Virus record (IMG/VR): IMGVR_UViG_3300022752_002753
Span: 1 to 31,660 of that record
From: a virus
Reading direction: 5' to 3' (one strand)
Length of the DNA stretch: 31,660 bases
Part shown: piece by piece, positions 1 through 19,314 of the stretch
Layout of the letters: each line of letters begins with the position of its first letter
How positions within the stretch are numbered: position 1 is the first letter of the stretch
The notes under the pieces: generated by a model
Seen by the model: only the letters and a program-made list of their open reading frames with translations
Databases searched by the model: none
Told to the model about the DNA's origin: nothing
Program-made: the position numbers and the translations under genes

Positions 1-3000
1 ATATTAGGAGAGGTAGGTTCAGGAAAATCTTCTTCGGTGCCTTTTGGAGAAAATACGTGGAAACCACCATCTGTCCTTCGAGAAGCATCTAGACTAATTG
101 CTTGAACTTCAGACCTACCACCTAGTAACACTACTTCAGACTCATTCACATTTTCGTTGTTGACTGTCAGCCCCATGCCAGTGCTTGCGGTAGAAAATAT
201 TTCTTCTACTGGAACAACTTTTTTAATTAAAGATGCCTTTTCACCTTCTCTACGAACGTTTACCATACTTGCAAAATATCTAGCAACACCAGTGCGAGTC
301 GACCAAGAAGCCAGGGGTCTAGAGTCAATGCTTACAGTGGTTTGATTGTCTAGGTCACCTACAGAATCTGGAAGATTCATCCCTCTGTAAACAAGAACTT
401 TTTTAATTCCAAGTTCTTTAAGTTTTTTCTGGGTGTACTCATACTGAGCACGAGCAATTGCTTTGTAGACTTTTTGCTGGCTAGGGTTGGTTATCGATGG
501 GTCATCGATTGTCCTACCTTGGAAACCTTGACTATGCGTGTTCTCTAACCCAAATTCATCTCTAGTAGCCTTCAGATACGCCATATTTAGAGTACTTGAA
601 TCAGCCCAACTATCTGAAATTCTGCCAATAGCGTTTCTCAAATATCTAGATGTTGCTTCTGGCTCTCCAACTAAAATATTAGAGTCATTCGATTTCTGTA
701 AATTTTTTAGTAACTCTTTAGCCTCTTCATAGGTAAATCGCTTTGGTAAGTAGTAACCATTTGGCTGTCTAATCTGAGTTAAATCTTTCCACTCTTTTGT
801 GCCGTAACGTAGGTACTTAGTCAAATTATTGAGATTACCATTTTTATCAATTATGTTTATCTCTCCGATAGTTTTTGTGCCAGTCCAAGGCTTGGAATTC
901 TCTGCCTTCCATAGCCCAGCCATGATGTCTTCATCGGTCAGCCCAGCATCCCTCATGCTTTGCTCTATAAATTCTCCTCTGTCTGAGGTGTCAATAGAAA
1001 ACTCACCGTCTTGTTTGAAGGTCTCTTGCAAAACAAGATTTCCAAACTCGGCGTCTGCATCCAAATTAAGTGGGTCGATTTCGCCATCTTCAGTAGGGAA
1101 TGATTCGTCGGCGGTGGCAATATTTCTTACCGACCTAGCAAAATTTGCACCAGCATTACTTAATTGCTTACTGTGGTAAATAGGCTGGTCAAAGTTATCA
1201 CGGGCAAATTCCAGCATTGCTGTTCCAATGCCCTCTCTTTGGAAAAATTCTTCAACACCAATCCAAGAAATTCCAGCAAGTGGAGTATCGCTATATTCTT
1301 TGTCATCAAATTCTGCATGAGATACTGTGTCTATATCATCTACGGAGTATCTAATGTTTCCATCTTCGTCATACTCGTAGTCAACTCCCTCGACTTCCAA
1401 CGTTCCTATCTCGCTGTAATTCTCGTCATAGGCAGTAATTGTTAGTCCGTTATAATAAACAGTTCCGTTTGACCGTGTTATTTTATTTTGCTCGTAAACT
1501 AAATCTATAATGTCGCCACTTTCAGTGACGTAACTTCCACGCCCCTCGATATTCTCAGAGGTGCTACCATCTACTCTTTTTGTGCTAGACACTACAGATG
1601 GCTTAGTGTCTGTGCTTAGTCTCTTTCTGACCTTTGCAACTTTTTGACTTACTCTTCTTTTTTCGCCAGTAGGTGTTACAGGGAAATCATCAACAAGTTC
1701 GCTTATGGAATTCTTTATCTCACGAGTTCTAGGAGAAGCCAAGAAACTTGAGTCACTATCAAAAGACTTAGTTTCGTTGATATTCTCAACTTTGATATCT
1801 TTAACTCTTTCTCCGAGTAGTTCTCTGACTTCTTCTAATTGCTCTTCTGAAGTTACATAAATTGCATCTACGTCATCTAGGGTTATTCTGCCCTGAGTGC
1901 TAGTTTGTACGTGTCTGTCATCGGTTCCTGGTGAGCCTACTCCAGAAATAGATATAAATGAACCGTTAGCGTTTCCAATCAATCCTGCCTTAATCATGGC
2001 TTCTTCATCTGTATCGCTCATACGCTGTGGAATTGCACCAGAATCCAAGGTGTCACCAATTGTATATGTGGTTCTATCTTTTACTGAATCTCTAAGTACA
2101 ATCTTGACATCGTTTTTATGCTTAGGATTTTTGATGCTGAGAATATCTTTCATAATCTGTCTAACAGAGTGCGGTGCAGCAAAGTCAGTCTCAAGCAGTG
2201 CTCTTCCAGTAGAAAAATCATCTGCAATAAATCCATTTGAAGGTAGAGATTCTTCTTTTTGAATAGCCTTTTTAAGTTTGTCATAGTCCATGTGGCTAAC
2301 TACTCTTCCACGAGACAGAGCCTTTGCAAGTTTTTCTTTTACAACTTTTGCATTTCCATTAAATCTTTTTCTCCAACCTGCACGTTGTCTAAGCACACTT
2401 TCAGATGCACCCTCAGGGTTGGTCGAAACATCAAGTAAGTGTTCAAGTCTAGACTTATCGTTGCCTCTTTGAACGTAATCTTTAATCTTAGTTACACTGT
2501 CTATTGCATATTTTCTTGCATCTTTTTTAGACAATCCAGAATCTATTGCTCTAAAGTAGAGGTGGTCATAAATTGCATCGCCATCTGCGTCATATTTAGG
2601 TTCGTACCCACCTAGGTTCTCGTCTTTATAACCGTGACGAGCAATGCTTCCTATGCCCTTCTGTCCACGTCGACGCTTTAATGTTTTTTCTGTTACAGGG
2701 AAATCTCCAACCAAAGAAACAATGTCTGAGTCCCTTAGGTCTAAACCTGTTGGGAAATCTTCATCTGCATTTTTCTTTTTATTTTGTGCACTTAGAGAGA
2801 AGGCTTCGCCCATGTCGCTTCTACTGCTTGAGTGGTAGATAGGTCTGTCAGAGTGCGAACGTGCAAACTCCAACATTGCTGTTGCTACTCCCTTACGTTG
2901 GTGCTCATCGTCTACTAATACTCCAACAATCACAGAGAATGGCTTAGATTCATCTACTTCACCGTGAACGTCCTTGGCAACTCCATGGGAATTCCAAGTT

Positions 3001-6000
3001 TTTCCACCAAATTCTGGTTCGCTCCACCAACTAAGCAAACCGCATGACTTGCCATCTTTATATACAGTCATGTAGCCAATTAATCTATCTTCAGCAGATT
3101 CTTGGGTAGTAAAAGTTTCTTTTATTTCAAACTCAAACTTTTCACCGCTAGGAGTGGTGTATTCGCCTCTAATCTTCCTGTAGTGCTCTTTTACACCATC
3201 TTCTTCTGAGTCAGATTCTTCTATATCTCCAACTGTCTTTATTCTTTTTGCTATTTCTTTAGACTTATCGGTCTTGCCAGCATAAGAGTTTTGGATTGCT
3301 TGCTGAGTCTCTTCTGGGAACTCTTCAAGCATGGTTAAGTTATTTTTATTTTGAACCGTGCGTGCAAACTCTTTACCCTGTGGGGTCAAGTCTGAGGAGT
3401 GATGAATAGGTGCAACCGAGTTTCTTCTAGCAAACTCCAACATTGCTGTTGCGACTCCACGTCTCTGATGGTCAGGGTTAACTGTAATGTAACCAATTGT
3501 TGCTGCAGTCTGAGACGGGTCATACAACTCTCTTGGGTACCAATTTGGGACTTCGTATTCGTTCCAGTTTCCATCGTAAAGTCTTAGAAGTTCTCTGTAC
3601 TCTAGACGACCAACCTTTTTACCATTTGAGTCATAAGCATAGATAGTTCCAGTTGGGCTTCCATTATCAAAAGTCTTTTGATGTAGTTCATACTTATTAC
3701 CATTTTCATCTGTATAAGTACCGTAATAATTTAAGTGGTAACCCTCGTGAGTTTCAGAATCACTGCTAATACGTTTGTTTATCTCTCTGCTCTTGTTGCT
3801 ACTAGGAACATACTTATAGCGATATTCTCCATTTTCTTCATACCATTCGCCACCACTTCCAGTGTCGTCGTCCTCAGCCTTATCAAAATCAATCGGGTCT
3901 CCCCACAAATCCAATTCCTCAGTCGGGAAGTTTTCATCAGTAGCAACTGGACTTTGTATTTTTCTAGCAAACATATCGCCAGCGTGTGTCCTAGCACTAC
4001 TGTGGAAAATAGGTCTATCGCTGTTCATCCTTGAGAACTCCAACATTGCAGTTGCAATTCCCCTACGTCTGTGGTTATCGTTCACTACCACCATGTCGAT
4101 TTTGCCAAATGGCTTATATTTATTTACTTCATCAAGATGAATATCTTCTGCAATCTCGTATTCTCGCCAACTTCTCTTATTTGTCTCAAGTTCGATACTA
4201 GAATTGGCGTCGCTGAAGTTTATTTCACCAATAGGGTAATCTCCATCTCTTTTGGTTATTTCACATTTACCCATCATCGATACGTAGTCGTCGTCTTCTT
4301 TGAAAAAGTCTTGAACTAATTTAATATCGTACTCTTCGCCACTTTCAGTGGTATATGTGCCCTCCCAAGTCTTTCGAGTTTGAAACTTACTAATTTCCTC
4401 TACTTTTGGCTCTTCAGATTTGTACTTTATTCTGCTTCTTACTTTTTTAGCAGCATCAGAATCTGAAGCAAATACTCTAGAAACTAGAGAATTGTAAGTA
4501 TCTGGAATATCTTCAAGAACGGAGAGGTCTTGTTTATTTTGTACAGCCCTCGCAAATCTTTTCCCATCTTCAAGAAGTTGGTGAGAGTGGTGAATTGGCA
4601 TAGAGGAACTCATCCTAGAGAATTCTAGAATTGCAGTTCCAACTCCCTTTCTAGTGTGCTCTTCGTCTACTTCAATCCAAGATATTGTTGCAAATGGTTT
4701 AGTAACGTCATATTTTGACTTGTCATACCAAAGTGGAACTTTGTCTGGATTCCAAATTTCTTCGCCAGTATAGTCTTGCACTTTATCTACTTCGTAGTAA
4801 TTTATAGTTCCAACATCTGTACCAGAGTCAGGGAAAGTTGTTACATCCACTCCACCGCCAAGACTTATGCCGTCGGCGTTGAAAGTTTCTCTGAAGTACA
4901 TCTTGTATATCGTTCCATCTGGTGCACGATAAATTGCCTGTCTAGTTACTGCCGTAAAGCCGTAATCATTTAACGTAGTTGTTACTGGCTCGGTTATGTC
5001 TTCAATTCTGCTTCTTACTTCTCTAGATTTTTGACTAGCATCTGGAGAGAAATCTTGGTCTTGTAGTTGCTGCGAGTTTGACACCATTCCAAGTTTTGGT
5101 GTGTTGTTTTTGCTTGAAGTACTTGTAGAGTTTTGAGAGTTGTCATATTTAAAATCGACTCTTTCAAAAACTGTTCCGTCTCGTGCTTGTCTTTCTTGAA
5201 GAGGTAGCGAACCTTTTCCACCCTCAAGCATGAAACCTAAAACAAAAGCAGTATTGTTGTCTCCAAATATTGCCTCTTCTGGAGTCATCTGACCGTTCTC
5301 TACTGCCTCCATAATGTGGTGGTTGTCTAGGGAGACAGTTCCACCACCAATCATCGATTCATAAGACATTGACCAAATTTCATAGTAGTCAAGTGGGTGA
5401 GGAGCATCATATTCTCTAGACATATAAATATTTCTAAAGTGGTCTATGATTCCTCTCTCATCGGCATCTGGATTTCCAGCGGTAGTGCTCTCAAAGAAAC
5501 CATCTGTTCTGTAGTTACCAAACTCATCCCTGTGTCTGGTTCTACCAGTCAGGAACTTCCACTCTGCTTCACGAATCTCAGGAATGGCAGCCTCCATAGC
5601 GTGCCCTAGTTCGTGAGTAGCAGTTTCTTCGTAACGGTCTAGCCCTCTAGTGTCACGATTGTTATTTACTGAAAGCCTGATTACAAAGTTTCCATCAACA
5701 ATTTGGAAGAATCCTCTTGCATCTATATCTCCATTGTGGTGGTTGTGGTCTAACTCAACGATTATTTTTCCTGCTGGTGTTCTACTCACCACACCAAGCA
5801 GTCTCTTTACCATCCAGTCTGGGTAGTTTGCTAGTGCCTTCTTCATTGCATTTTCAGCAGCAGCGGTTGCATCCAAATCTTCTGTTTGATGTTCTTCAAC
5901 TATGTGACCAGTACGGGAATTTAAAACTTCTACTGAAGTTAGAGTGTCTCTGACTTCGCAGACATCTTTACCGTCTCCGTTATAGAAACTTACACCTTGC

Positions 6001-9000
6001 TCTTCTAGGTATTTTTTGTACTCTTCACGAGAACCTCTAGATAACTCGGTCTCCATAAAGGAAAGTTCTGAAGCGACTTTTTTAGACCTGTTTTGAGCCT
6101 CTAATCCCTTGTTTAATGTTGCTAGTAGGTTAGGGTCTTTCTCGGTCTCAACAACTTGCTTTATGTTTGCCAAACTTAGGTAGGCTAACTCTGCTTCTCT
6201 TAATTGATTATTTACCGAGTCATTTATAAATTGCTCGTCACTCATTGGAGTGTCATTTTTTAGTGCTCCAGATAGAAGATTTCTACGAGTCCTTTGCTCT
6301 ATTAAACCTCTAGCACGCTCTTTTTCCCCTGTTTCCCATCTTCTCTTGAACTCTCTACGAAGTTCTTTTACCGCGGCAAACTTTATATCACGCTGACGAT
6401 TAAATTCAGTGGTGTGCTCCATAAACTTTTTAGCAAAATCTTTGCCAAATACTTTTTGCAGTCTTTTTAGTACTCTGCCTTTTACTTCTTTATCGTGACC
6501 TTCTACAGAACCTAGCCACTCATCAAATTCTTTAGCCTCTTCTTCAGTAGGAAGTAGAGTAGTGTTTCTGTGCCCATCCCGTGAGTGTCTAAATCCTTTT
6601 CCAAAATCACCTCTTAATTCATCTATACCTTCTCCAGTCTCAAGGATGTCTGGAGTTAGCGTTGGAGGTGGTGGTGCTTGTACTGGAGTAGTAGTAACTC
6701 TTCTTGGCTCAGATGATTCTTTTTTAGGAATATCTTTTTCAAAACTTGGATTACCCTTTAGACCTACTTCTCCATCAACTTCACGCTTAGGGGTTGCCTT
6801 AGCGTCTGGAGATGTTGCACCTAGTGTTTGTCTTGTAACACCAATGTGGTCGTTGTACTCATTACAAATTCTCAGAGCGTCTTCGTGGTCTAGGTCTACT
6901 ACAACACATTTAAGTTCTACTGGCTTGCCACCCTCCATCTGAGCAAGCAAAGCAGAAGCCCAGCGGTGGTGACCGTCAATTACATACCCATCACGAGTAA
7001 CATAAAGTACTTGGTCGTCCATCTTGAACTTTGCACGAAGTTCTGGAGAGAGCCAAGACTGCATAATTTTTCCAACGTTACCCATGTCCATTTCTGCTTG
7101 CACAGGGGTTAATTGGTCTGGTGTCATTACCTTAGGTTCAAACTTAATTCCAAGTTTTTCTAAAGTAGCCTCAAAATCTTTTTGGTCTTCAGGTGTTGTC
7201 AATTGAGGCATCTTGCCACGTTCTGCACCTAAGTTGTTGTTTAGGTAGTTGCTAGTACCAATCAACTTCATATTTGTTAGGTCAACACCCATGTTGCGAT
7301 ACTTACGAGTTACCGCTTTCATTTCATCTGGAGTTAGAGGCTCGCCGTTTTTGCTCTTAATAAAATTAAGTAGTTCTGTGGCACGCTCTTCGTTCAGGGC
7401 TGCTGGGTTGATTGCACGTCTTAAACGGTTTACTTGATTCCGCGGTAGACCTTCCAACTCGCTACTAAGTTCTCTAGCCAAGACTGACGCACCAATTGGA
7501 TTATCGTCTTGCCCAATAAAGTCTCTGTCCTTCATAGCAACAAGAACTGCTTGCAAACCAACTTCTTGGTCTACTTCAATAAACCCACCGTCATAAAGGA
7601 TTTCGTAAGCCTCTTGAGGGTCTGTTACTCCAGTTACTACCTCGTCTTTGCTTACTTCATTCAAGTCCCAGAAACCATCGTCGTGGTCAGGATGTAGGTC
7701 TGGTCTAGGGTCTGCTTCTCTACTGTATTCAGGAGTGAATTTTACTTCTCTACCTTCTCCGTCAAGAACCATGTGCTTATCTAAATCTCGGATACGCCTG
7801 TTCTTTGGAATCTTCTGAGAGTCCTGCAACTGAGCATCTGGAAATCTTCTGCCGTTTTCATCCACATACCACTCAAGCAGTGAAGGGTCTATTCTCTTGC
7901 CATCTGCACCTATGACATTAGAAACGTCTGGTATCTCGTGAATTTCACCATTTTCGTCAATGGTGGTAGGAACTCTCTCAGTTCCCTTCTTCTTAAAGAA
8001 GTCTAAAATCTTAGAGCGTTTACGCTCAGGTTGTGGTTCATTTTCAGGGATTACAGCCTTTACATTAGGCTCTCCCTTTCTTACGTTATTTTCTTCAGTT
8101 AAATATTTTGAAGCCTCTTTCAAAGCCTCTTCTTTAGTTCTAGAGGTTAGTACCTTAGAAGGCTTTAACTTGTTTTGGTCATCTTCGTCTTCGTAGATTT
8201 CTGTGACGTAGTTGCCCTTGTAGTCTTTGGTAATTCTTGCTCTAGCATCTTTACTATCTTTAGGAGTATAAAGAAGTCTTCCTTTTTCATCTTCTACAAA
8301 CTCGTCTGGAGTGACAACGTTGTCATCGGAGACGTGATACAAATCTGCTTGCTTTTTAAAGTTCTTTTTGGCTGGTCTATTCTTTGCAACCTTAGTTCTA
8401 GGTGAACTTAGTTCACTAGCCTCTGCCATCGCTTGGACATCTTCCCAGTCCTGAGCGTATCCAATTACGTCAGGCTGAATTCCAGCCTTTTGCTCTTCAA
8501 GGGAAGGCTGTCGTGTTACTTCAAATATTGGTTCTTCTGGGTCGATAGTTCTAGAACCACTCTCCAAGCCCCTCACTTCAACGCCATCTGAAACGTTTTT
8601 ATCCATGTCTGACTTAACAGCACTGTGCTTCTCTGGCTGGAATCTTCTTACTGTATATCCGCCATTACCATTTGCATTGTTCTTGCTTCTGTAAGTAGAG
8701 AAAGGTGTATCGCCTTCGGCTGGATTTACCTGCTCGAATACTCCCTTAGGGAAATCTCCGTCTGGAGCATCTCCCCACATCTTTCTTTCTTTTTTAGCGT
8801 CTACAGCCTTGTAACTCTTCTTATCAAACTTTTGTGCCGCTGCTTGGACATCGCCCCAACTTTGGTAGTAACCAATGAAGACGTTTTCTCCGTCTCCCCA
8901 CTTCTCTTTGTCGCTTGCAGTCGCTGGGTTACTAAATAATTCGTAAACAGGGTGCTTAGGGTCTATCTCACCGTTCTTGCCGATACCCTTAACTTCTACA

Positions 9001-10094
9001 TTGCCATCAGCAGTTTTATCTTTGAAAGATGGAATGTCATTAATGTTGTCGTACTGACGTAGGACGTATCCATCTGTAGAAATAAACTGCTTTTTGAAGG
9101 TAGCATTTTCATCCAATGGATTGGTGTCAACTGACCATCCATTTGGTGCGTCAATTTTTACTAGGCTTTTCTCATCTATTGAATAGCCTCTTGCATAGTC
9201 AGCAGACTTTGGTTTTCTAAATCCAAGTTTGCCAAACAGGTTGTTTATGTATGCCTTGACGCCAGCAACTGAACTTGTAGGCATTCTGTAAATGCCTGTA
9301 CCCAATACTGGGTCATCTATAAATTCAACGTCAAACGTGTTGGTGTCGGTGCCAGTTCCAACGAATCTACCGATTACAGAATGGATAAATCCATTTACCG
9401 ATTTGATGAAGGCTCTAGCACCTCCACCCATAAAGGCAAAGCGACCTAAACGGTCACGTCGTTGAAGTTTAGCCCTCGCCGAGCGTTCTAAAAAAGAGTT
9501 CCCCCCAGCAAATGGGTTAATTGCAGCGGTGATTGCAATTACCACATCCTTGGGGACATCCTCAACTTCTGCTGACTCTAAGCGAGTTACCAAATAGTTG
9601 TATTCAACGCTACCTGGCGAGGTTAGGCAGATTGAAGCAACAAGAGGTCTAAACTCTTCGCTTATTCTTGGGTCAGCCGAAATCCATTCACTCTTCAGCA
9701 AAGCCAAGGTTCTTTCTGAAACCTCGGTTGTGTCTGTAGAGAGAGGGTGTCCGATTGGGAGTAAATCAGTGTGTGCACTAGCAACTACTGGCTGGTGACC
9801 AGTAATTGCCATATTCAAGAAATCGTTTAGTTCTCTAGTAGCAGTAAATACTCTGTGTTGAATATCTGAAGACGCTACTGTCTTGAAAAGAGAACGCTCA
9901 ACGACGTCCATAGCAGTTCTCTTATTAACTCTTCGAGTTTCAGGAACGTCTTTGTTGGCTAACTCCAACATAGAGTCAATCATCTCGCTGAGAGTCTGCT
10001 CTGGAATATACTTTTCACCACCAATCTCGGTGGCTTGAACAGGTCGACCGAGCAGCCAGTTGACTGGGTTCTGTTCGTTATCTATTTCTGACAA
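1..10094 (-). CDS. Giant multidomain virion-type (polyvalent-like) protein; ParB-like, zincin, five GNAT modules, ART; 3' end outside window
   Basis: I translated the complement by hand from 10094 to the left edge and found no stop, so at least 3,364 codons are open. The start is TTG at 10094 with AAGGAAG four bases upstream, 9 bp after the Dps gene. Visible domains, in order: an N-terminal region with an RDRLGRFAFMGGG segment; a duplicated module (about residues 340-560); a ParB-type nuclease motif DGHHRW at residues 1040-1045; a charged helical stretch (about 1190-1350); a zincin motif HELGH at 1494-1498; GNAT-like modules with motif-A glycines at 1817, 2012, 2213, 2402 and 2955; and an ADP-ribosyltransferase-like domain (R3237, SWST 3263-3266, ESE 3318-3320). 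Position after portal suggests a capsid-associated protein, possibly injected with the DNA. This mix of effector domains fits the published polyvalent protein concept. Domain calls rest on motifs only; no MuF core was recognised. Confidence 0.85.
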   Translation of the reverse strand, partial: MSEIDNEQNPVNWLLGRPVQATEIGGEKYIPEQTLSEMIDSMLELANKDVPETRRVNKRTAMDVVERSLFKTVASSDIQHRVFTATRELNDFLNMAITGHQPVVASAHTDLLPIGHPLSTDTTEVSERTLALLKSEWISADPRISEEFRPLVASICLTSPGSVEYNYLVTRLESAEVEDVPKDVVIAITAAINPFAGGNSFLERSARAKLQRRDRLGRFAFMGGGARAFIKSVNGFIHSVIGRFVGTGTDTNTFDVEFIDDPVLGTGIYRMPTSSVAGVKAYINNLFGKLGFRKPKSADYARGYSIDEKSLVKIDAPNGWSVDTNPLDENATFKKQFISTDGYVLRQYDNINDIPSFKDKTADGNVEVKGIGKNGEIDPKHPVYELFSNPATASDKEKWGDGENVFIGYYQSWGDVQAAAQKFDKKSYKAVDAKKERKMWGDAPDGDFPKGVFEQVNPAEGDTPFSTYRSKNNANGNGGYTVRRFQPEKHSAVKSDMDKNVSDGVEVRGLESGSRTIDPEEPIFEVTRQPSLEEQKAGIQPDVIGYAQDWEDVQAMAEASELSSPRTKVAKNRPAKKNFKKQADLYHVSDDNVVTPDEFVEDEKGRLLYTPKDSKDARARITKDYKGNYVTEIYEDEDDQNKLKPSKVLTSRTKEEALKEASKYLTEENNVRKGEPNVKAVIPENEPQPERKRSKILDFFKKKGTERVPTTIDENGEIHEIPDVSNVIGADGKRIDPSLLEWYVDENGRRFPDAQLQDSQKIPKNRRIRDLDKHMVLDGEGREVKFTPEYSREADPRPDLHPDHDDGFWDLNEVSKDEVVTGVTDPQEAYEILYDGGFIEVDQEVGLQAVLVAMKDRDFIGQDDNPIGASVLARELSSELEGLPRNQVNRLRRAINPAALNEERATELLNFIKSKNGEPLTPDEMKAVTRKYRNMGVDLTNMKLIGTSNYLNNNLGAERGKMPQLTTPEDQKDFEATLEKLGIKFEPKVMTPDQLTPVQAEMDMGNVGKIMQSWLSPELRAKFKMDDQVLYVTRDGYVIDGHHRWASALLAQMEGGKPVELKCVVVDLDHEDALRICNEYNDHIGVTRQTLGATSPDAKATPKREVDGEVGLKGNPSFEKDIPKKESSEPRRVTTTPVQAPPPPTLTPDILETGEGIDELRGDFGKGFRHSRDGHRNTTLLPTEEEAKEFDEWLGSVEGHDKEVKGRVLKRLQKVFGKDFAKKFMEHTTEFNRQRDIKFAAVKELRREFKRRWETGEKERARGLIEQRTRRNLLSGALKNDTPMSDEQFINDSVNNQLREAELAYLSLANIKQVVETEKDPNLLATLNKGLEAQNRSKKVASELSFMETELSRGSREEYKKYLEEQGVSFYNGDGKDVCEVRDTLTSVEVLNSRTGHIVEEHQTEDLDATAAAENAMKKALANYPDWMVKRLLGVVSRTPAGKIIVELDHNHHNGDIDARGFFQIVDGNFVIRLSVNNNRDTRGLDRYEETATHELGHAMEAAIPEIREAEWKFLTGRTRHRDEFGNYRTDGFFESTTAGNPDADERGIIDHFRNIYMSREYDAPHPLDYYEIWSMSYESMIGGGTVSLDNHHIMEAVENGQMTPEEAIFGDNNTAFVLGFMLEGGKGSLPLQERQARDGTVFERVDFKYDNSQNSTSTSSKNNTPKLGMVSNSQQLQDQDFSPDASQKSREVRSRIEDITEPVTTTLNDYGFTAVTRQAIYRAPDGTIYKMYFRETFNADGISLGGGVDVTTFPDSGTDVGTINYYEVDKVQDYTGEEIWNPDKVPLWYDKSKYDVTKPFATISWIEVDEEHTRKGVGTAILEFSRMSSSMPIHHSHQLLEDGKRFARAVQNKQDLSVLEDIPDTYNSLVSRVFASDSDAAKKVRSRIKYKSEEPKVEEISKFQTRKTWEGTYTTESGEEYDIKLVQDFFKEDDDYVSMMGKCEITKRDGDYPIGEINFSDANSSIELETNKRSWREYEIAEDIHLDEVNKYKPFGKIDMVVVNDNHRRRGIATAMLEFSRMNSDRPIFHSSARTHAGDMFARKIQSPVATDENFPTEELDLWGDPIDFDKAEDDDTGSGGEWYEENGEYRYKYVPSSNKSREINKRISSDSETHEGYHLNYYGTYTDENGNKYELHQKTFDNGSPTGTIYAYDSNGKKVGRLEYRELLRLYDGNWNEYEVPNWYPRELYDPSQTAATIGYITVNPDHQRRGVATAMLEFARRNSVAPIHHSSDLTPQGKEFARTVQNKNNLTMLEEFPEETQQAIQNSYAGKTDKSKEIAKRIKTVGDIEESDSEEDGVKEHYRKIRGEYTTPSGEKFEFEIKETFTTQESAEDRLIGYMTVYKDGKSCGLLSWWSEPEFGGKTWNSHGVAKDVHGEVDESKPFSVIVGVLVDDEHQRKGVATAMLEFARSHSDRPIYHSSSRSDMGEAFSLSAQNKKKNADEDFPTGLDLRDSDIVSLVGDFPVTEKTLKRRRGQKGIGSIARHGYKDENLGGYEPKYDADGDAIYDHLYFRAIDSGLSKKDARKYAIDSVTKIKDYVQRGNDKSRLEHLLDVSTNPEGASESVLRQRAGWRKRFNGNAKVVKEKLAKALSRGRVVSHMDYDKLKKAIQKEESLPSNGFIADDFSTGRALLETDFAAPHSVRQIMKDILSIKNPKHKNDVKIVLRDSVKDRTTYTIGDTLDSGAIPQRMSDTDEEAMIKAGLIGNANGSFISISGVGSPGTDDRHVQTSTQGRITLDDVDAIYVTSEEQLEEVRELLGERVKDIKVENINETKSFDSDSSFLASPRTREIKNSISELVDDFPVTPTGEKRRVSQKVAKVRKRLSTDTKPSVVSSTKRVDGSTSENIEGRGSYVTESGDIIDLVYEQNKITRSNGTVYYNGLTITAYDENYSEIGTLEVEGVDYEYDEDGNIRYSVDDIDTVSHAEFDDKEYSDTPLAGISWIGVEEFFQREGIGTAMLEFARDNFDQPIYHSKQLSNAGANFARSVRNIATADESFPTEDGEIDPLNLDADAEFGNLVLQETFKQDGEFSIDTSDRGEFIEQSMRDAGLTDEDIMAGLWKAENSKPWTGTKTIGEINIIDKNGNLNNLTKYLRYGTKEWKDLTQIRQPNGYYLPKRFTYEEAKELLKNLQKSNDSNILVGEPEATSRYLRNAIGRISDSWADSSTLNMAYLKATRDEFGLENTHSQGFQGRTIDDPSITNPSQQKVYKAIARAQYEYTQKKLKELGIKKVLVYRGMNLPDSVGDLDNQTTVSIDSRPLASWSTRTGVARYFASMVNVRREGEKASLIKKVVPVEEIFSTASTGMGLTVNNENVNESEVVLLGGRSEVQAISLDASRRTDGGFHVFSPKGTEEDFPEPTSPN
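95..420 (-). other. ADP-ribosyltransferase-like domain of the giant protein
   Basis: The translated segment shows the three blocks of the R-S-E class of mono-ADP-ribosyltransferases in the right order: LVYRGM (Arg 3237), LASWSTRTGVARYF (Ser-Trp-Ser-Thr, 3263-3266) and NESEVVLLGG (Glu-Ser-Glu, 3318-3320, the ExE pair). About 80 residues separate the Arg and ExE blocks, which is compact but normal for this fold. The family transfers ADP-ribose from NAD to proteins; an ExE pair is usually linked to arginine modification. Target and activity are inference. It may be the C-terminal domain or be followed by more sequence beyond the window edge. Confidence 0.75.
1120..1560 (-). other. GNAT-like module 5 of the giant protein
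   Basis: Contains the acetyl-CoA-loop-like block QREGIGTAMLEFAR (Gly 2955), then QPIYHSKQLSNAGANFARSVRN. It starts with the module-opening pattern G-x-Y-x-T-x-S-G near 1550. It is separated from module 4 by about 350 residues of unrecognised sequence, unlike modules 1-4, which follow each other directly. Confidence 0.7.
2775..3185 (-). other. GNAT-like module 4 of the giant protein
   Basis: Opening pattern GEYTTPSGEKFEF, then the motif-A block HQRKGVATAMLEFAR (Gly 2402) and DRPIYHSSSRSDMGEAF. The R/Q-x-x-G-x-A/G pattern is the classical acetyl-CoA pyrophosphate-binding loop of GNAT enzymes. Confidence 0.72.
3345..3750 (-). other. GNAT-like module 3 of the giant protein
   Basis: Opening pattern GTYTDENGNKYEL, motif-A block HQRRGVATAMLEFAR (Gly 2213), then APIHHSSDLTPQGKEFAR. 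The conserved PI-x-H-S followed by T/S-x-x-G-x-x-F-A-R is shared by the modules. Confidence 0.72.
3950..4380 (-). other. GNAT-like module 2 of the giant protein
   Basis: Opening pattern GTYTTESGEEYDI, motif-A block HRRRGIATAMLEFSR (Gly 2012), then DRPIFHSSARTHAGDMFAR. About 195 residues from module 1 and 201 from module 3, so the array is near-periodic. Confidence 0.72.
4530..4980 (-). other. GNAT-like module 1 of the giant protein
   Basis: Motif-A block HTRKGVGTAILEFSR (Gly 1817), then MPIHHSHQLLEDGKRFARAVQNK. It is the first module after the zincin domain. Confidence 0.7.
5270..5900 (-). other. Zincin metallopeptidase-like domain of the giant protein
   Basis: The segment TATHELGHAMEAAIPE carries the HExxH zinc motif at residues 1494-1498; Glu 1495 would be the catalytic base. 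Acidic residues downstream (EIREAEWKFL, and later YEIWSMSYESM) could supply the third ligand. Preceding strands read like the upper strands of a zincin core. A role in virion protein processing or in attacking a host protein is inference. Confidence 0.7.
6860..7210 (-). other. ParB/sulfiredoxin-type nuclease-like domain of the giant protein
   Basis: The segment YVTRDGYVIDGHHRWASALL matches the ParB-like nuclease signature (D/N-G-x-H-R), here residues 1040-1045, in a strand-turn-helix setting, followed by KPVELKCVVVDLDHEDAL. Such domains recur in phage head-associated multidomain proteins. Confidence 0.7.
8405..9080 (-). repeat. Duplicated about 110-130-residue module inside the giant protein
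   Basis: Two copies share the same order of blocks. Copy 1 (about 9075-8800): YVLRQY, then GNVEVKGIGKNGEIDPKHPVYE, written here in parts, then VFIGYYQSWGDVQAAAQKF. Copy 2 (about 8660-8410): YTVRRF, then DGVEVRGLESGSRTIDPEEP, then VIGYAQDWEDVQAMAEAS. Function unknown; the similarity is visible by eye and suggests an ancient internal duplication. Confidence 0.6.
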
Positions 10095-10103
10095 CTTTCT
10101 TCC

Positions 10104-10613
10104 TTACATTAAGTTCGGTACGACTACAGTTGCATCGGCACCAATGGTTGTGCCAAGTTGCCACTTCCACTTCTGGTGCATATCGATACGCTCCGCTAGG
10201 AAGTTTGCTACTCCCTGCTGACGAGAATTGTTTGCAGTGTCAAATGTATCCATTAGGTAGGCAAGAACTTTTTCGTTAGCCTCGTACAAAGAAGAAGACA
10301 TCGCCATCGGGTCATAACCAACTGGTCTGGCTTCAATGCAACTAAGACTTAGGAAATCTTCTAGCAAGAATGGTGCATCGTATCCCAACTTGCGAAGGTT
10401 TTCTGCAAGAGGGTCGATTGCACCGTCTGCATCTTCATAAATCTTTTGGAAGAACTTGTGGAACTGAGTGAACTCTGCACCTCTAACATTCCAGTGGTAG
10501 CCGTGAGCGAGGAATTTAAAGATTACTGTGTCAGACAAGACACACATCAGTTGTGTTGCAAGGTCATCCTTTGAATTACCACCCTGCTGGGTTGATACTA
10601 CGTATTCGTTCAA
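10104..10613 (-). CDS. Dps/ferritin-like protein
   Basis: A 169-residue protein of the Dps family, which oxidises and stores iron and protects DNA. The diagnostic segment HGYHWNVRGAEFTQFH is followed by D67 and E71. Aligned by spacing to E. coli Dps, the ferroxidase ligands His40, His52, Asp67 and Glu71 are present, while the position of E. coli Asp67 is Gln56. Length matches the family. The start is TTG (10613), preceded by AGGAG that overlaps the portal stop codon, so translation is probably coupled to portal. Location between portal and the giant virion-type gene suggests late expression and perhaps packaging into the capsid; that is inference. Confidence 0.9.
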   Translation of the reverse strand: MNEYVVSTQQGGNSKDDLATQLMCVLSDTVIFKFLAHGYHWNVRGAEFTQFHKFFQKIYEDADGAIDPLAENLRKLGYDAPFLLEDFLSLSCIEARPVGYDPMAMSSSLYEANEKVLAYLMDTFDTANNSRQQGVANFLAERIDMHQKWKWQLGTTIGADATVVVPNLM

Positions 10614-14752: not shown

Positions 14753-15292
14753 ATGACAAAAAACAAAAGTCAACCAGACTATAAAGAATCGGTTGCCACT
14801 AACATACAAGACTATGACTATCCTAGAATACCGCTATGGTCAGAGATACTCCCGAACCTATGGCAAGGCGGAACATCTGACAATGACAAGGTAGGGGATA
14901 GGTCTATCAAACTACACATCCCAGACATCACTGCCAAAGACTTCGATAGTGTCTACACTTTCTACGCCTTTGCTAACCCAGTTGATTGGTTAGTTGAAGA
15001 ATACCGCTTTGGCTACTACGACTCACCAGATACAGACTTCCCTATTGGTAAGTTCAAGAAGATAGTTGAGATGGCTCACCGTGATTGGCAAGAGGGTAAG
15101 AGAGTTCTAATCCGTTGCCAAGCAGGTCTAAACAGGTCAGGTATTATTACTGCACTTGTGTTGATTAGAGAAGGCTACTCCGCAAGAGAAGCGATTGACC
15201 TAATGAGAGCAAAGAGACATAGCCTAGTTCTATTCAATGAGGACTTCGAGGATTGGCTACTAAGTCAGCCAGTAGAGTTTTGGAGAGGGTAA
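14753..15292 (+). CDS. Dual-specificity/tyrosine protein phosphatase-like protein
   Basis: 179 residues, about the size of a single dual-specificity phosphatase domain. The signature loop VLIRCQAGLNRSG carries the nucleophile Cys122 and the phosphate-binding Arg128 of the CX5R motif. The Asp-rich loop YYDSPDTDFP (90-96) is where the general acid normally lies. The C-terminal helix KRHSLVLFNEDFEDWL fits the fold. It would hydrolyse a phospho-tyrosine, phospho-serine/threonine or RNA 5' phosphate; the substrate is unknown. It is the only plus-strand gene here, inserted between the packaging and structural blocks and flanked by two DtxR/IdeR-type boxes, so it may be a moron gene under host iron control. 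AAAGGA lies 11 bases before the ATG. Confidence 0.85.
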   Translation: MTKNKSQPDYKESVATNIQDYDYPRIPLWSEILPNLWQGGTSDNDKVGDRSIKLHIPDITAKDFDSVYTFYAFANPVDWLVEEYRFGYYDSPDTDFPIGKFKKIVEMAHRDWQEGKRVLIRCQAGLNRSGIITALVLIREGYSAREAIDLMRAKRHSLVLFNEDFEDWLLSQPVEFWRG

Positions 15293-15308
15293 GGTTAGCC
15301 TTACCTAA
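15288..15308. promoter_or_regulatory. Second DtxR/IdeR-box match and hairpin at the convergent stop codons
   Basis: TAAGGTTAGCCTTACCTAA (15290-15308) also fits TWAGGTWAGSCTWACCTWA at all 19 positions. It covers the TAA stop of the phosphatase (15290-15292) and that of terL (15303-15301). The same bases form a 7-bp stem with a TTAG loop (15288-15305), so it could instead be a bidirectional transcription end point, although no U-run follows. Confidence 0.5.
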
Positions 15309-16692
15309 TCCGAAACAGACTGCCCTTTGAATCAGGTAATCTCCTAGCACCCATAGACTTAGCAGTAATCTTACCCCCAGTGAATCCAGCAGGGGGTTTG
15401 ATTAGTAGAGCCGTAAGAGCGTGGACTAGAGCATCCACTCGGTCAGGGGACTTACCCTCACCTGGAACCCAAGAGACCATCTGACTTTCCAAGTCAGCCA
15501 GATAACCTATGTGGTGAACACGACCTTGTTCATAAGCAAGGGTAATCGGTTCAGCACGTAGAGCCTTACCATACTTGCTATGCACTTCCAACACCTTGAT
15601 ACTAGGGTCAATGGTGTGGATAGCATTACGAACTAAAGCACCACCTTGATTGACTTCGGCTACAACAGGACATCCCCATTTGCGAGCCATAGCGACTACT
15701 CGGTTAGCCCATACATCAGGAGAGCCAAGCACGCTAGCGTCTTCCAACACCCAAGCATTACGCTTATACAAGTCTCTCTCACCGCTAGATGATACGACCA
15801 CAATTCCACACTCATCACGAGGGTTCTCTGCAACAGAAGGGTCAACCCCAATGATACGTAGAGGTGTGTTCAGTGGATACACTGACTCTCTACTATTCTC
15901 GATAACTTCGTCATTCCACAAAGCACCCTCGACACTATCCAACATTTCACCATAAAGTTCTTGTTGAGCGAGCCTAGTTCCAGCATAAACACCAGTAATA
16001 GCATCCAAGTAAGCAGTTGATAGGTTTCCAGAGTTGTCCAGTGTCGAACCTCGACTAATCACAACACGACCAGTGTTCTTAGCCTCATCCAACAACTTAT
16101 AAAGCAATGGAACACGCTTAGGGGTAGTGGTAATCATAATCTTAGGGTTAGCACCTAAACGAGTTCCAACACGCAAGTTATCAAAGGCAGTCATACCTGC
16201 AGCATCAGGTGTCTGTCTCCAAGCAGCAACCTCATCACCCCAAGCGTGTGTGAATTGAGGACCACGCAAGGAATCAGGTTCATCAGCAGTAAAGCAAGTT
16301 GCAGTATTGCCATTGGGCCAAGTTAGTCTTCTCTTAGATGGTTCGTATAATGGTCTCTCACTAGGAGGAGAGACGTTCATAATTCCAGACTCACCTTCAA
16401 CGATAACGTCTCGCACGTCCGCTGCTGTTCTAGCAACAAGAGCAAAGCGACGTTGACCAGTGTTAGCGTATTTGGCTTCTTCACGAACCCACTCTGCCGC
16501 TGCCCTTGTCTTACCAGCACCACGACCAGCCAGATACATCCAGATAGCCCAATCGCCTTCGGGTGCTTGCTGTTCAGGTCTTCCCCATACTGACCAATCC
16601 CAGAGCAATGTGTCAGGGTCAAAGCCAGATAGGAGAATCGCCCTCTCGTCATCAGGCAAGAGAGCGATTTGTTCCATAAGAGATTTAGCCAT
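15301..16692 (-). CDS. terL: Terminase large subunit
   Basis: 463 residues. The ATPase half has Walker A GRGAGKT (56-62), the coupling region, and Walker B HAWGDEVAAW (Asp153-Glu154). The nuclease half shows RIIGVDPS (Asp284), VVAEVNQGG (Glu346) and PDRVDALVHAL (Asp420), the expected RNase-H-fold acidic triad. It cuts concatemeric DNA and pumps it into the prohead through the portal. It is preceded by the small-terminase candidate with a 13-bp gap. No clear Shine-Dalgarno lies before the ATG; a strong palindrome sits in the junction instead. It converges on the phosphatase gene with 8 bp between stops. Confidence 0.95.
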   Translation of the reverse strand: MAKSLMEQIALLPDDERAILLSGFDPDTLLWDWSVWGRPEQQAPEGDWAIWMYLAGRGAGKTRAAAEWVREEAKYANTGQRRFALVARTAADVRDVIVEGESGIMNVSPPSERPLYEPSKRRLTWPNGNTATCFTADEPDSLRGPQFTHAWGDEVAAWRQTPDAAGMTAFDNLRVGTRLGANPKIMITTTPKRVPLLYKLLDEAKNTGRVVISRGSTLDNSGNLSTAYLDAITGVYAGTRLAQQELYGEMLDSVEGALWNDEVIENSRESVYPLNTPLRIIGVDPSVAENPRDECGIVVVSSSGERDLYKRNAWVLEDASVLGSPDVWANRVVAMARKWGCPVVAEVNQGGALVRNAIHTIDPSIKVLEVHSKYGKALRAEPITLAYEQGRVHHIGYLADLESQMVSWVPGEGKSPDRVDALVHALTALLIKPPAGFTGGKITAKSMGARRLPDSKGSLFRIR

Positions 16693-16701
16693 AAGGCTAT
16701 T

Positions 16702-16720
16702 GTATCTATTCGATAGATAC
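16702..16720. promoter_or_regulatory. Perfect 8-3-8 palindrome at the terS/terL junction
   Basis: GTATCTAT-TCG-ATAGATAC covers the last codons and stop of the terS-like gene and ends about 10 bp upstream of the terL ATG. In mRNA it would form a stable hairpin close to the terL initiation region; as DNA it could be a protein-binding dyad. Confidence 0.6.
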
Positions 16721-17263
16721 CCTATTCTTCGAGGAGATAGGTGTGTAGACCTTGCTATGTCCGTTATCGCTTGTCTTATAGCCGTAGCGAGCGAGACGGA
16801 ATCTAATAGCAGCGTGAGAGATACCTAGTCTCTTACCCAGTCTGTATAGTGGCACACCTTCGACAACGTGAGCGTGGTTCAGTAGTCGAACATACTCTTC
16901 GGCTTCAGCACGGAATCGCATAGCGTTAGAGCGAACCTGTTGAGCCATCGGTTGTAGTTCGAGTAATCTAGCCAGTGTTTCAGGGGAAGGCTCTACAAAC
17001 TCACGAGGTTTCTTTTCAGGGTAGGTAGGCGGTTGAGGGACAATGAAAGAATCATCCAACTTCACAACTGCCTCTTTAGACTCGGTTATGACCTGTCTAA
17101 TTCTTTCACGAGTGATACCGCACGCATTAGCGATGCTGTTTAGACTCCAACCAGCACTTCTAAGTTCTCTAATGTATTGATTTCTATCGTCCGTGTCTTG
17201 AATCACCAAGAACTTGACTCTAACCTCCTTAGGTAGAGTTAGGTTATGTTTTACCTGTTTCAT
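16706..17263 (-). CDS. Terminase small subunit candidate, two-HTH DNA-binding protein
   Basis: 185 residues. The N-terminal HTH is at about 29-57 (ELRSAGWSLNSIANACGITR, then a recognition helix), a Pro-rich linker at about 75-93, a helical core, and a second HTH at about 131-160 (PLYRLGKRLGISHAAIRFRL). Its place directly before terL and its DNA-binding domains suggest the packaging-site recognition subunit. The protein at 13117-13653 has the same two-HTH plan, so one of them may instead be a regulator. The ATG at 17263 has only a weak purine-rich upstream region (AGAAGAAAAG). Confidence 0.65.
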   Translation of the reverse strand: MKQVKHNLTLPKEVRVKFLVIQDTDDRNQYIRELRSAGWSLNSIANACGITRERIRQVITESKEAVVKLDDSFIVPQPPTYPEKKPREFVEPSPETLARLLELQPMAQQVRSNAMRFRAEAEEYVRLLNHAHVVEGVPLYRLGKRLGISHAAIRFRLARYGYKTSDNGHSKVYTPISSKNRVSIE

Positions 17264-17291: not shown

Positions 17292-17468
17292 TTATTCTTT
17301 TTGTGCCAGTAAAGCAGACACAACCGCTGATAGACCCATAGCCATTGACAAAGCAATAGCATTTGGATTGATAATCGCTACTAAAATAGCAACTACTGAT
17401 AGCACGACTGCAAAAATAGCAGACCACACAAATTCACGCAATCGAATCACCCAAGTTGGTAGTCTCAT
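17292..17468 (-). CDS. Small two-helix membrane protein (58 aa)
   Basis: Starts RLPTWVIRLREFVWSAIFAV and has two hydrophobic segments (about 14-33 and 36-53) with a basic N-terminus and the end LLAQKE. The ATG overlaps the preceding TAA (TAATG), so it is translationally coupled in the HDAC-to-terL operon. Size and topology would suit a holin or other membrane accessory protein, but no specific family is recognised. Confidence 0.75.
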   Translation of the reverse strand: MRLPTWVIRLREFVWSAIFAVVLSVVAILVAIINPNAIALSMAMGLSAVVSALLAQKE

Positions 17469-17662
17469 TACTCACCACCCACATCTAGGTTGTTCTCGAA
17501 TCCGCAATCTTCACATTCAACATAAACTTCACTACTTCGGCTACTGCCAGTAGTAGTAATGTCTTTGTTGTTGTGTTGACAGTCCGCACACTCGAACGAG
17601 ACGGTTAGGCTGACTTCATCATCTCCATAACCACCTGTCTTCCAAGAATCGTAGTCAAACAT
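17468..17662 (-). CDS. Small zinc-ribbon-like protein (64 aa)
   Basis: Two CxxC knuckles, CADC (25-28) and CEDC (50-53), with acidic surroundings, suggest a zinc ribbon. The start overlaps the stop of the gene upstream by one base. Function unknown; could be an adaptor for a protein or nucleic-acid partner. Confidence 0.75.
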   Translation of the reverse strand: MFDYDSWKTGGYGDDEVSLTVSFECADCQHNNKDITTTGSSRSSEVYVECEDCGFENNLDVGGE

Positions 17663-17892
17663 TACTTCCAGTCCTCTCCGATTGCCTTCATCATTTCATT
17701 AGGACTTACCTTCAATGTCTGACATAGGCTAGCCATAGTTCCAGAAGGAATTTGGCGTTGTAGGTGAAAGTATCTACTAAGACTTGACTTCTGATAGCCG
17801 TTCTCATTAGCGAACTTGTTTAGGGACGTATAGCCCAGTTTGTTATACCTTGCTACAAACCAGTCCCAAGTTTTTTCTTCTTGCTTTTGCAT
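17662..17892 (-). CDS. Small XRE-type helix-turn-helix protein (76 aa)
   Basis: The segment SLNKFANENGYQKSSLSRYF followed by IPSGTMASLCQTLKVSPNEM has the five-helix layout of the lambda-repressor/XRE family. Likely a small DNA-binding regulator. It overlaps its neighbours by one base on each side in the same operon. Confidence 0.75.
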   Translation of the reverse strand: MQKQEEKTWDWFVARYNKLGYTSLNKFANENGYQKSSLSRYFHLQRQIPSGTMASLCQTLKVSPNEMMKAIGEDWK

Positions 17893-18101
17893 TAGTTCTT
17901 GCCCTTCTTATTCTTTGTGTCTTTGTTTTCTTTTTTAGGTGATACTACTCCGAGCAGTGGTTGAATCTCGCTGTCTTCATCCGTAGAGCCATACCAATCC
18001 TTACCACTTGACTTATCTATCTTGCGTTCAGTAAGTATGAGCAATAGGGAGATAAGAACTATCAAGCCCAGTGCAACTAATCCAGTTGTAATCAAATCCA
18101 T
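17892..18101 (-). CDS. Small single-pass membrane protein (69 aa)
   Basis: A hydrophobic helix at residues 4-23 (ITTGLVALGLIVLISLLLIL) is followed by a charged, Lys-rich cytoplasmic-type tail ending NKKGKN. Function unknown. One-base overlaps with both neighbours. Confidence 0.75.
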   Translation of the reverse strand: MDLITTGLVALGLIVLISLLLILTERKIDKSSGKDWYGSTDEDSEIQPLLGVVSPKKENKDTKNKKGKN

Positions 18102-18286
18102 TAGTTCACTACTCCTGTTTCTGTTCTCTTGTTCTGTTCAGCACCCTTTTTATAGGCTACGTCCCAAATCTGTCTTGCATTTACAACAGTGTAAATACTT
18201 ATGTCGTGCTTATCTGCATACTCCTGCACATCAGCAAACCACTCAAAGAACTCTCGTTCTCTTTCTTCATTGAACTTATCTAGCAT
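18101..18286 (-). CDS. Small hypothetical protein (61 aa)
   Basis: Acidic, helical and soluble (REFFEWFADVQEYADKH, IWDVAYKKGAEQ). No family recognised. The start overlaps the HDAC-like stop in a TAATG junction, showing coupling with it. Confidence 0.7.
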   Translation of the reverse strand: MLDKFNEEREREFFEWFADVQEYADKHDISIYTVVNARQIWDVAYKKGAEQNKRTETGVVN

Positions 18287-19257
18287 TACTTCACCGCCTT
18301 CCTTGTTTCGTTATAGATTTCAGATACAACAGTTGACCAAATCTTAGGCGTGTGTGTCTCTGCTTGATAGCCACCAGCACCACCGATAAGCACCCTGCCT
18401 TCAGTAAGTTTGTTAGCCAAGTCCGCAACTACTCGTGAAGCATACTTGTAGCCATCGTAGGTGTATTTCAACCCCCACCACTCGCCTTCGTGTCCATCTG
18501 CACCAGCAGCAAGGAGAATCACATCAGGCTGATATCTCTCAACCTTTTCTGCAATATCGTCAATAGCCCAAGCAAAGGCATCGTCCCCTTCGTCCTTCTG
18601 CAAGGCGTAGTTGTAGATATCCTTATCTTCAATCTGATACAGATAGTTGCCAGTCTGACCTCTGACCCAAGTGTCCGAGTGAGTTGGATATATTCCGTGT
18701 CCGTGAATCGAGAAGGTAGGGATACCAGAATCTTCTAGCAAGTTCTGAACTCCATCACCAGCGTTGACATCCCAGTCAATATAAACAGGTCTCAACCCAG
18801 CCTTCTGAAACTCTAGGGCAGCCCAAGCAAAGTCATTGAAGACACAGAAGCCTTCACTCCATCCGTGTTGAGCGTGGTGTTTTGCACCTTGTGGATTGAA
18901 TCCAATCTTGATATCACCTGCAATAATCTTTTCCGTAAGTCTCGCAGTTCCAGCAAACATTTGTAGTGCTACTTGACCGAGTTCAGTCTTGTTGCCAGTC
19001 CAATCATTGCTTATGCCTTCATCTAAGACCTCTGATACATAAACAGGTGAGTGTATGCTTTCCAGTCTCTCTCTATCACCAGAATCAACAGTTGGTTCTA
19101 TGACTACTACATCATCTCCAAGTGCTGATACCAGTTGCTCCGTAGCCAACTTCGCACGAATCGGCTTAGTCGGATGTGAGCCATCGCCAGAGCCGAGCAT
19201 CCATTTGAGGTAGTCGTCTCCGTAAGCGATATGTAATTTATCTTTGTTTTCCGTCAT
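18286..19257 (-). CDS. Histone-deacetylase/AcuC-superfamily hydrolase
   Basis: 323 residues, the size of a bacterial HDAC-like amidohydrolase that removes acetyl or related groups from lysine or polyamines. Visible are the paired active-site histidines (GAKHHAQHGWSEGFCVFND), the metal region YIDWDVNAGDGVQ, SIHGHGIYP, AAGADGHEGE (third zinc ligand Asp) and the GGAGGYQ tyrosine loop. In the usual D-x-D-x-H-H-G motif both histidines are replaced (V-N-A-G), so one canonical zinc ligand (His180 of human HDAC8) is Asn here. The enzyme may bind metal differently or be inactive. I chose the ATG at 19257, with AAAGGA five bases upstream. First gene of the operon leading to terL. Confidence 0.85.
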   Translation of the reverse strand: MTENKDKLHIAYGDDYLKWMLGSGDGSHPTKPIRAKLATEQLVSALGDDVVVIEPTVDSGDRERLESIHSPVYVSEVLDEGISNDWTGNKTELGQVALQMFAGTARLTEKIIAGDIKIGFNPQGAKHHAQHGWSEGFCVFNDFAWAALEFQKAGLRPVYIDWDVNAGDGVQNLLEDSGIPTFSIHGHGIYPTHSDTWVRGQTGNYLYQIEDKDIYNYALQKDEGDDAFAWAIDDIAEKVERYQPDVILLAAGADGHEGEWWGLKYTYDGYKYASRVVADLANKLTEGRVLIGGAGGYQAETHTPKIWSTVVSEIYNETRKAVK

Positions 19258-19285
19258 TTGTTTCCTTTTTTTCATTGTTTTTTCA

Positions 19286-19314
19286 AGTTTATCTGTTATT
19301 CACAGTTATGTCAA
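19286..19314 (-). promoter_or_regulatory. Promoter of the HDAC-to-terL operon
   Basis: TTGACA, 17 bp, TAAACT on the minus strand; predicted transcript start about 20-25 nt before the HDAC ATG. A copy of the dispersed GTGTGAAAAA element begins 8 bp upstream of the -35. Confidence 0.75.

Follow-up and report, generated by a model that had tools for sequence, protein, structure and literature searches.

Few features of the histone deacetylase (HDAC) fold are as conserved as its zinc ligands, and a phage open reading frame (ORF) in which one of them is replaced raises the question whether its product still is a metal-dependent enzyme and, if so, on which molecules it acts. The ORF is located in IMG/VR record IMGVR_UViG_3300022752_002753, a phage sequence of which positions 1-31,660 are referred to here as the window. 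The features of the protein itself are:

18286..19257, minus strand: HDAC-fold protein, 323 aa from the likely start (Pfam PF00850, AlphaFold2, VIA-align)
18763..18765, minus strand: codon of N171, which takes the place of the zinc-ligand His (H180 in HDAC8; sequence, alignments, site table)
18679..18681, minus strand: codon of H199, candidate replacement ligand (column-by-column comparison of motif states)

The longest frame (18286-19275, minus strand) encodes 329 aa from the first ATG, and all residues are numbered here according to this frame. The second ATG at 19257 is the likelier start, because it is directly preceded by the sequence AAGGAAA and because the aligned relatives begin there. 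The encoded protein matched Hist_deacetyl (PF00850) over residues 34-318 with an E value of 2.1e-43, and no family match was obtained in PHROGs, NCBIfam, or PADLOC. An AlphaFold2 model computed from 58 aligned sequences reached a pLDDT of 94.3 and resembled solved HDAC-fold proteins along its whole length in Foldseek searches; the best PDB match according to VIA-align was 5ji5 (Z 37.4, rmsd 2.0, 290 residues). The phage ORF is a full HDAC-fold protein, as it possesses the arginase/HDAC fold and a family profile spanning the whole domain, which characterize the zinc-dependent HDAC family (PF00850). It shares the whole-length fold (Z ~37) with the members of the HDAC/AcuC/HDAH superfamily such as HDAC6, HDAC8, Bordetella HDAH, and Burkholderia 5ji5, but has an identity of only 18-25% to the solved members.

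The active-site motif of the protein reads D167-W-D169-V-N171-A172-G-D174-G. In alignments with HDAC6, N171 and A172 face the two His residues of DWDVHHG, the first of which is the zinc ligand (H180 of HDAC8), and N171 is encoded by AAC on the minus strand at positions 18763-18765 of the window. A preliminary description of this locus had stated that the zinc-ligand His is replaced by Asn with the His-His pair, the third-ligand Asp, and the Tyr retained; the replacement was confirmed by the HDAC6 alignments and the codon check, and the site table contains H133/H134, D260, and Y303 as well as D167, D169, and D174. The accompanying idea of an altered metal site or substrate holds up as far as sequence comparison can tell. 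HDACs bind zinc by Asp-x-His and a further Asp (D178, H180, and D267 in HDAC8), of which D169 and D260 are kept here, but the His is N171 throughout the lineage of the phage (21/21 sequences). Judged by its ligands the protein should not be called a zinc HDAC, although it may still work like one: the His-His dyad (H133, H134), the charge-relay Asp residues (D167, D174), the catalytic Tyr (Y303), and both Asp ligands are invariant in the same 21 sequences. A literature search found no HDAC with an Asn ligand.

The conservation of the substitution was assessed in two scans of viral contigs. The first retrieved 31 relatives with 57-83% identity, all of which read DWDVNAG, and its pattern set included VYIDWDVN, i.e., the motif itself. 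The second used only the patterns FNPQGAK and GFCVFND and no motif pattern, and recovered the same lineage together with more distant relatives, which removes the possibility that the Asn is an artefact of the search pattern. A sequencing error is ruled out by the 31 other phage loci in combination with this pattern-free rescan. The 66 dereplicated sequences comprised 30 with the state HHG, 15 with HAG, and 21 with NAG. The NAG state was seen only in phages of the window's lineage, where all 21 dereplicated relatives read DWDVNAG. HAG occurred in freshwater Microbacteriaceae and further actinobacteria, most of them represented by MAGs, as well as in a small number of phages, whereas HHG was the state of Nocardioides, of Microbacterium phage Magritte, and of other phages. 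The phage lineage with the NAG protein probably infects freshwater actinobacteria. Among annotated phage records, Magritte gp204 (OR553905) came closest, with 34% identity along its length, but it has the canonical DWDAHHGDG and is annotated as a hypothetical protein. Canonical HHG genes of the family were also observed on two contigs (L034, L035) whose viral origin is given only by their deposit label, Staphylococcus phage or Bacteriophage sp.

In the phylogenetic tree the HAG and NAG sequences formed one starred group as opposed to HHG; the free tree requires four state changes, and a single NAG clade was not rejected (AU p 0.337). The Asn substitution is fixed and maintained, because it is shared by all 21 dereplicated relatives of the lineage, pairwise dN/dS values to the window range from 0.07 to 0.14, and the lineage uses AAT as well as AAC for the Asn. 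In bacteria the distribution of the gene family is patchy. Of 398 genomes sampled from the family to which the Aurantimicrobium record belongs, 5 carried it, as did 8 of 67 genomes from the genus of the Rhodoluna record, and a phylum-wide sample queried with the Nocardioides relative gave 1/396, this one being the Aurantimicrobium record itself. One Microbacteriaceae MAG contig carries two tandem HDAC-family ORFs (L121:2726-4750).

The altered residue does not stand alone. In HDACs, the FPGTG loop lines the tunnel and comes after a tunnel-lining aromatic residue. This loop is replaced in HAG as well as NAG sequences and reads YP-T-HSDTW in the phage protein, where it carries H199. According to the column comparison by motif state, every NAG sequence (21/21) has H199 and none of the others does (0/45), and S200, W/F203, E141, and F188 also change along with the Asn. 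Since the loop follows the tunnel-lining aromatic in HDACs, H199 could reach the metal, and its strict co-conservation with the Asn makes a ligand swap from the N171 position to H199 possible. The preliminary description had regarded an alignment placing a different His as ligand as evidence against its reading; H199 is a candidate for such a ligand, and the Asn at the original position stands. The joint change of N171 and H199 may represent a single event on one branch.

Our favoured reading, to which we assign a probability of roughly 0.48, is a metal hydrolase with a re-tuned metal site that acts together with a dual-specificity phosphatase (DSP) in the processing of ADP-ribose or NAD derivatives. 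The HDAC-fold hydrolase would have remained intact, and its metal site would have been re-tuned in one actinophage lineage. The second His, which is not a ligand, would have disappeared first (HHG to HAG) and the zinc-ligand His afterwards (HAG to NAG), the latter together with the rebuilding of the active-site loop that carries the invariant H199. H199 may have taken over as ligand; otherwise N171 itself would bind the metal. A rather unlikely alternative is that the loss of the ligand His ended catalysis and left a pseudoenzyme, which would bind and sequester either a ligand or a target that is acetylated or ADP-ribosylated, and might for instance act as a decoy towards the system of the host. 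Pseudoenzymes usually lose catalytic residues, whereas here all the remaining ones, including the two Asp ligands, the His-His dyad, and the Tyr, have stayed invariant in 21/21 sequences, purifying selection is strong, and a new His arrived together with the Asn, all of which argues against this explanation. In its favour, the defining zinc ligand is absent from the whole NAG lineage, and the rebuilt loop (E141, F188, H199, S200, W203) suggests changed binding needs. Moreover, H151 of the Escherichia coli agmatinase, which belongs to the same superfamily, is taken here as the counterpart of the ligand position occupied by N171. The H151N exchange in this enzyme abolished its activity completely, as stated in the passage of PMC7313459 that cites Salas 2004, and this counts against the metal hydrolase.

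The proposed partnership with a phosphatase is based on the gene neighbourhood, which contains the following features:

14753..15292, plus strand: dual-specificity phosphatase of the rhodanese-phosphatase superfamily (Pfam DSPc, 4e-11), conserved partner of the HDAC gene
15301..16692, minus strand: terminase large subunit, terL (Pfam Terminase_6N/6C)
16706..17263, minus strand: terS-like HTH protein (PHROG terminase small subunit, 5e-6; synteny)
17292..17468, minus strand: 58-aa ORF, conserved downstream of the HDAC gene in most NAG phages (synteny)
17662..17892, minus strand: small ORF of 76 aa with homologues in related phages (homologue comparison)
18101..18286, minus strand: 61-aa ORF overlapping the HDAC stop (ORF list)
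19286..19314, minus strand: promoter-like site TTGACA-17-TAAACT upstream of the HDAC gene (pattern match, 10/12)
19450-19433: terminator-like hairpin upstream of the HDAC gene

The phosphatase has an intact C-x5-R motif (CQAGLNR). At 42 of the 44 HHG phage loci, the homologous gene overlaps the beginning of the HDAC gene or directly adjoins it, and the two remaining loci start at a contig edge. The NAG phages have it immediately beyond terL and on the other strand at nearly every locus with a long enough flank, L026/L062 being an exception, and no DSP gene was found near the HDAC gene of the HAG phages. Among the bacterial relatives, a DSP gene is located directly 3' of the HDAC gene in L115, L122, L124, and L126 and about 150 bases downstream of it in L116 and L119. 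The HDAC-DSP pairing has survived large sequence divergence and a rearrangement; a report of such a pair was not found in the literature. Many HHG phages have the HDAC gene directly upstream of terL, and in the NAG phages it precedes terS-terL. It may start a transcript, because a promoter-like site and a terminator-like hairpin precede it, and on these grounds the earlier suggestion that it heads an operon with the terS-like gene and terL is plausible. However, promoter-like matches were no more frequent in the region than in shuffled sequences, and several small genes intervene before terS and terL.

The surroundings of the bacterial relatives point to a possible substrate. The 16 bacterial loci, most of which are short and several truncated, contained according to Pfam a NrtR-like Nudix regulator (10/16, one of them weakly), a VWA protein (9/16), a separate DSP (8/16), an ARPP (6/16), an ADP-ribosylglycohydrolase-DSPc protein (4/16), and a Macro domain (1/16), in addition to HD and NT5C genes. 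In L116 and L117, the genes of the NrtR-like regulator, ARPP, ARG-DSPc, HDAC, and DSP form a single run (L116:1269-6633), which corresponds to the published ARG-centric layout, including its core genes, plus a HDAC gene. ARG-centric ADP-ribose-processing systems, which combine an ARG domain with a phosphatase, a Nudix or WYL regulator, and ARPP/chaperone genes, are predicted to counter viral ADP-ribosylation (PMC9503650, section 3.8). The bacterial relatives resemble these systems in their NrtR/Nudix regulator, ADP-ribosylglycohydrolase-phosphatase fusion, ARPP, VWA, HD, 5'-nucleotidase, and Macro genes, and the phage has kept the phosphatase partner, but a text search of the main text of PMC9503650 retrieved no mention of a HDAC in an ARG-centric role. 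Other bacterial loci lacked ARG within the stretch examined but kept NrtR, VWA, and DSP. None of the sought neighbour genes was found at the Aurantimicrobium locus (L114) or, within the stretch examined, beside the homologue from the Nocardioides sample (L165). The phages also differ from the ARG-centric systems: no ADP_ribosyl_GH or Macro domain was detected in 19 phage records, some of them fragments, and only the HDAC-DSP pair is shared. Two recurring uncharacterised proteins of 167 and 190 aa (L115:4326-4829 and 6513-7085), the former without a Pfam match, flank HDAC-DSP in several bacterial operons.

Because the HDAC-DSP pair occurs in bacterial operons with NrtR-like, ADP-ribosylglycohydrolase, ARPP, and Macro genes, we infer that the hydrolysis is linked to ADP-ribose or NAD. 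The HDAC-fold protein and the DSP phosphatase would constitute a two-enzyme module, in which the former may cleave an acyl or amide bond, either on a molecule derived from ADP-ribose or NAD or on a target that carries ADP-ribose, and the phosphatase would act in the same pathway; the phage might benefit by working against, or in place of, an ADP-ribose-processing response of the host. Against this reading count, besides the inactive agmatinase variant, the lack of ARG and Macro in the phages, the small number of bacterial loci, and the bare neighbourhood of L114. It is doubtful, yet conceivable, that these proteins make up a new HDAC-fold branch that acts with DSP on ADP-ribose- or NAD-derived substrates in host operons and the phages of these hosts, and that in one phage lineage the His ligand moved between loops, the H180 position becoming Asn and H199 being gained.

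The preliminary description had instead paired the protein, as an eraser of acetylation, with five GNAT modules of the same phage. These are located in the following region:

3..10094, minus strand: giant ORF of at least 3364 aa that continues beyond the window; GNAT-like repeats, ParB-like stretch, R-S-E motif at the C-terminus (Pfam/pattern matches)
10104-10613, minus strand: Ferritin-like/Dps gene adjoining the portal gene (Pfam Ferritin, PHROG DNA-binding protein)

All five GNAT matches turned out to be partial repeats that lie within this single ORF, which also contains a HELGH-type metalloprotease-like motif; only two of them exceed the family cut-off, and nothing was found that ties them to the HDAC gene. 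The writer/eraser pairing was therefore dropped, also because the conserved partner of the HDAC gene is a phosphatase and its bacterial relatives are found among ADP-ribose-processing genes, and a metal hydrolase of ADP-ribose or NAD derivatives is favoured over a chromatin-style eraser. Still less likely than a pseudoenzyme is an ordinary protein or polyamine deacetylase in which the Asn is merely tolerated as metal ligand and whose target may be an acetylated NrtR-type regulator or another host protein. Family and fold agree with such an activity, HDAC genes of the family adjoin NrtR-like genes, and in Mycobacterium smegmatis NrtR is under the control of lysine acetylation, which is unchanged by cobB deletion (PMC6800001). 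Furthermore, HDAC-fold proteins of giant viruses are active acetylpolyamine amidohydrolases (PMC9992855), a class characterized by a narrow active site formed in a dimer and by activity on acetylated polyamines; the only strong HDAC-fold matches in a viral structure library also were proteins of giant viruses. The giant-virus amidohydrolases have in common with the phage protein that a HDAC fold is encoded by a virus, but differ from its tailed-phage setting and its altered metal ligand. Three observations speak against an ordinary deacetylase: HAG and NAG sequences have another loop in place of the tunnel-lining FPGTG, the gene keeps company with a phosphatase and enzymes of ADP-ribose processing, and the neighbourhoods examined contained no recognisable acetyltransferase or polyamine gene. 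A sequence artefact or decaying gene with a meaningless Asn, for which nothing could be adduced beyond the single window, is refuted by conservation, namely by independent assemblies from many samples that carry the NAG gene, silent codon variation, and dN/dS values of ~0.1.

Further indications of ADP-ribose chemistry were found in the giant ORFs. The C-terminal R-S-E pattern in the window resembles ADP-ribosyltransferases and is common to three related phages, but this identity received no support from Pfam, a profile search against PDB sequences, or single-sequence AlphaFold2 (pLDDT 32). An ADP-ribosyltransferase domain (PF03496) was detected in giant ORFs of related phages, i.e., L159 (G860, record of L067), G850, G852, and G853; G860 exceeded the Pfam cut-off (E 3.7e-13), and the three others, which are the ones sharing the R-S-E pattern with the window, remained below it. 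These domains count in favour of the metal hydrolase acting on ADP-ribose or NAD derivatives. Freshwater phages with ADP-ribosyltransferases are known, and the enzymes have been interpreted as toxins against protists (PMC6802176). As an alternative, they may act in the bacterial host, where a HDAC-DSP module would matter.

The protein is a real and conserved HDAC-fold variant with an altered metal ligand. A naturally fixed His-to-Asn exchange in which the rest is kept would show how the metal centre of the HDAC fold can be rewired, and the connection with NrtR/ADP-ribosylglycohydrolase operons suggests that ADP-ribose systems have a HDAC-type component that has gone unrecognised. For the phage protein, the phosphatase partner and the ADP-ribose context are of more interest than acetylation.
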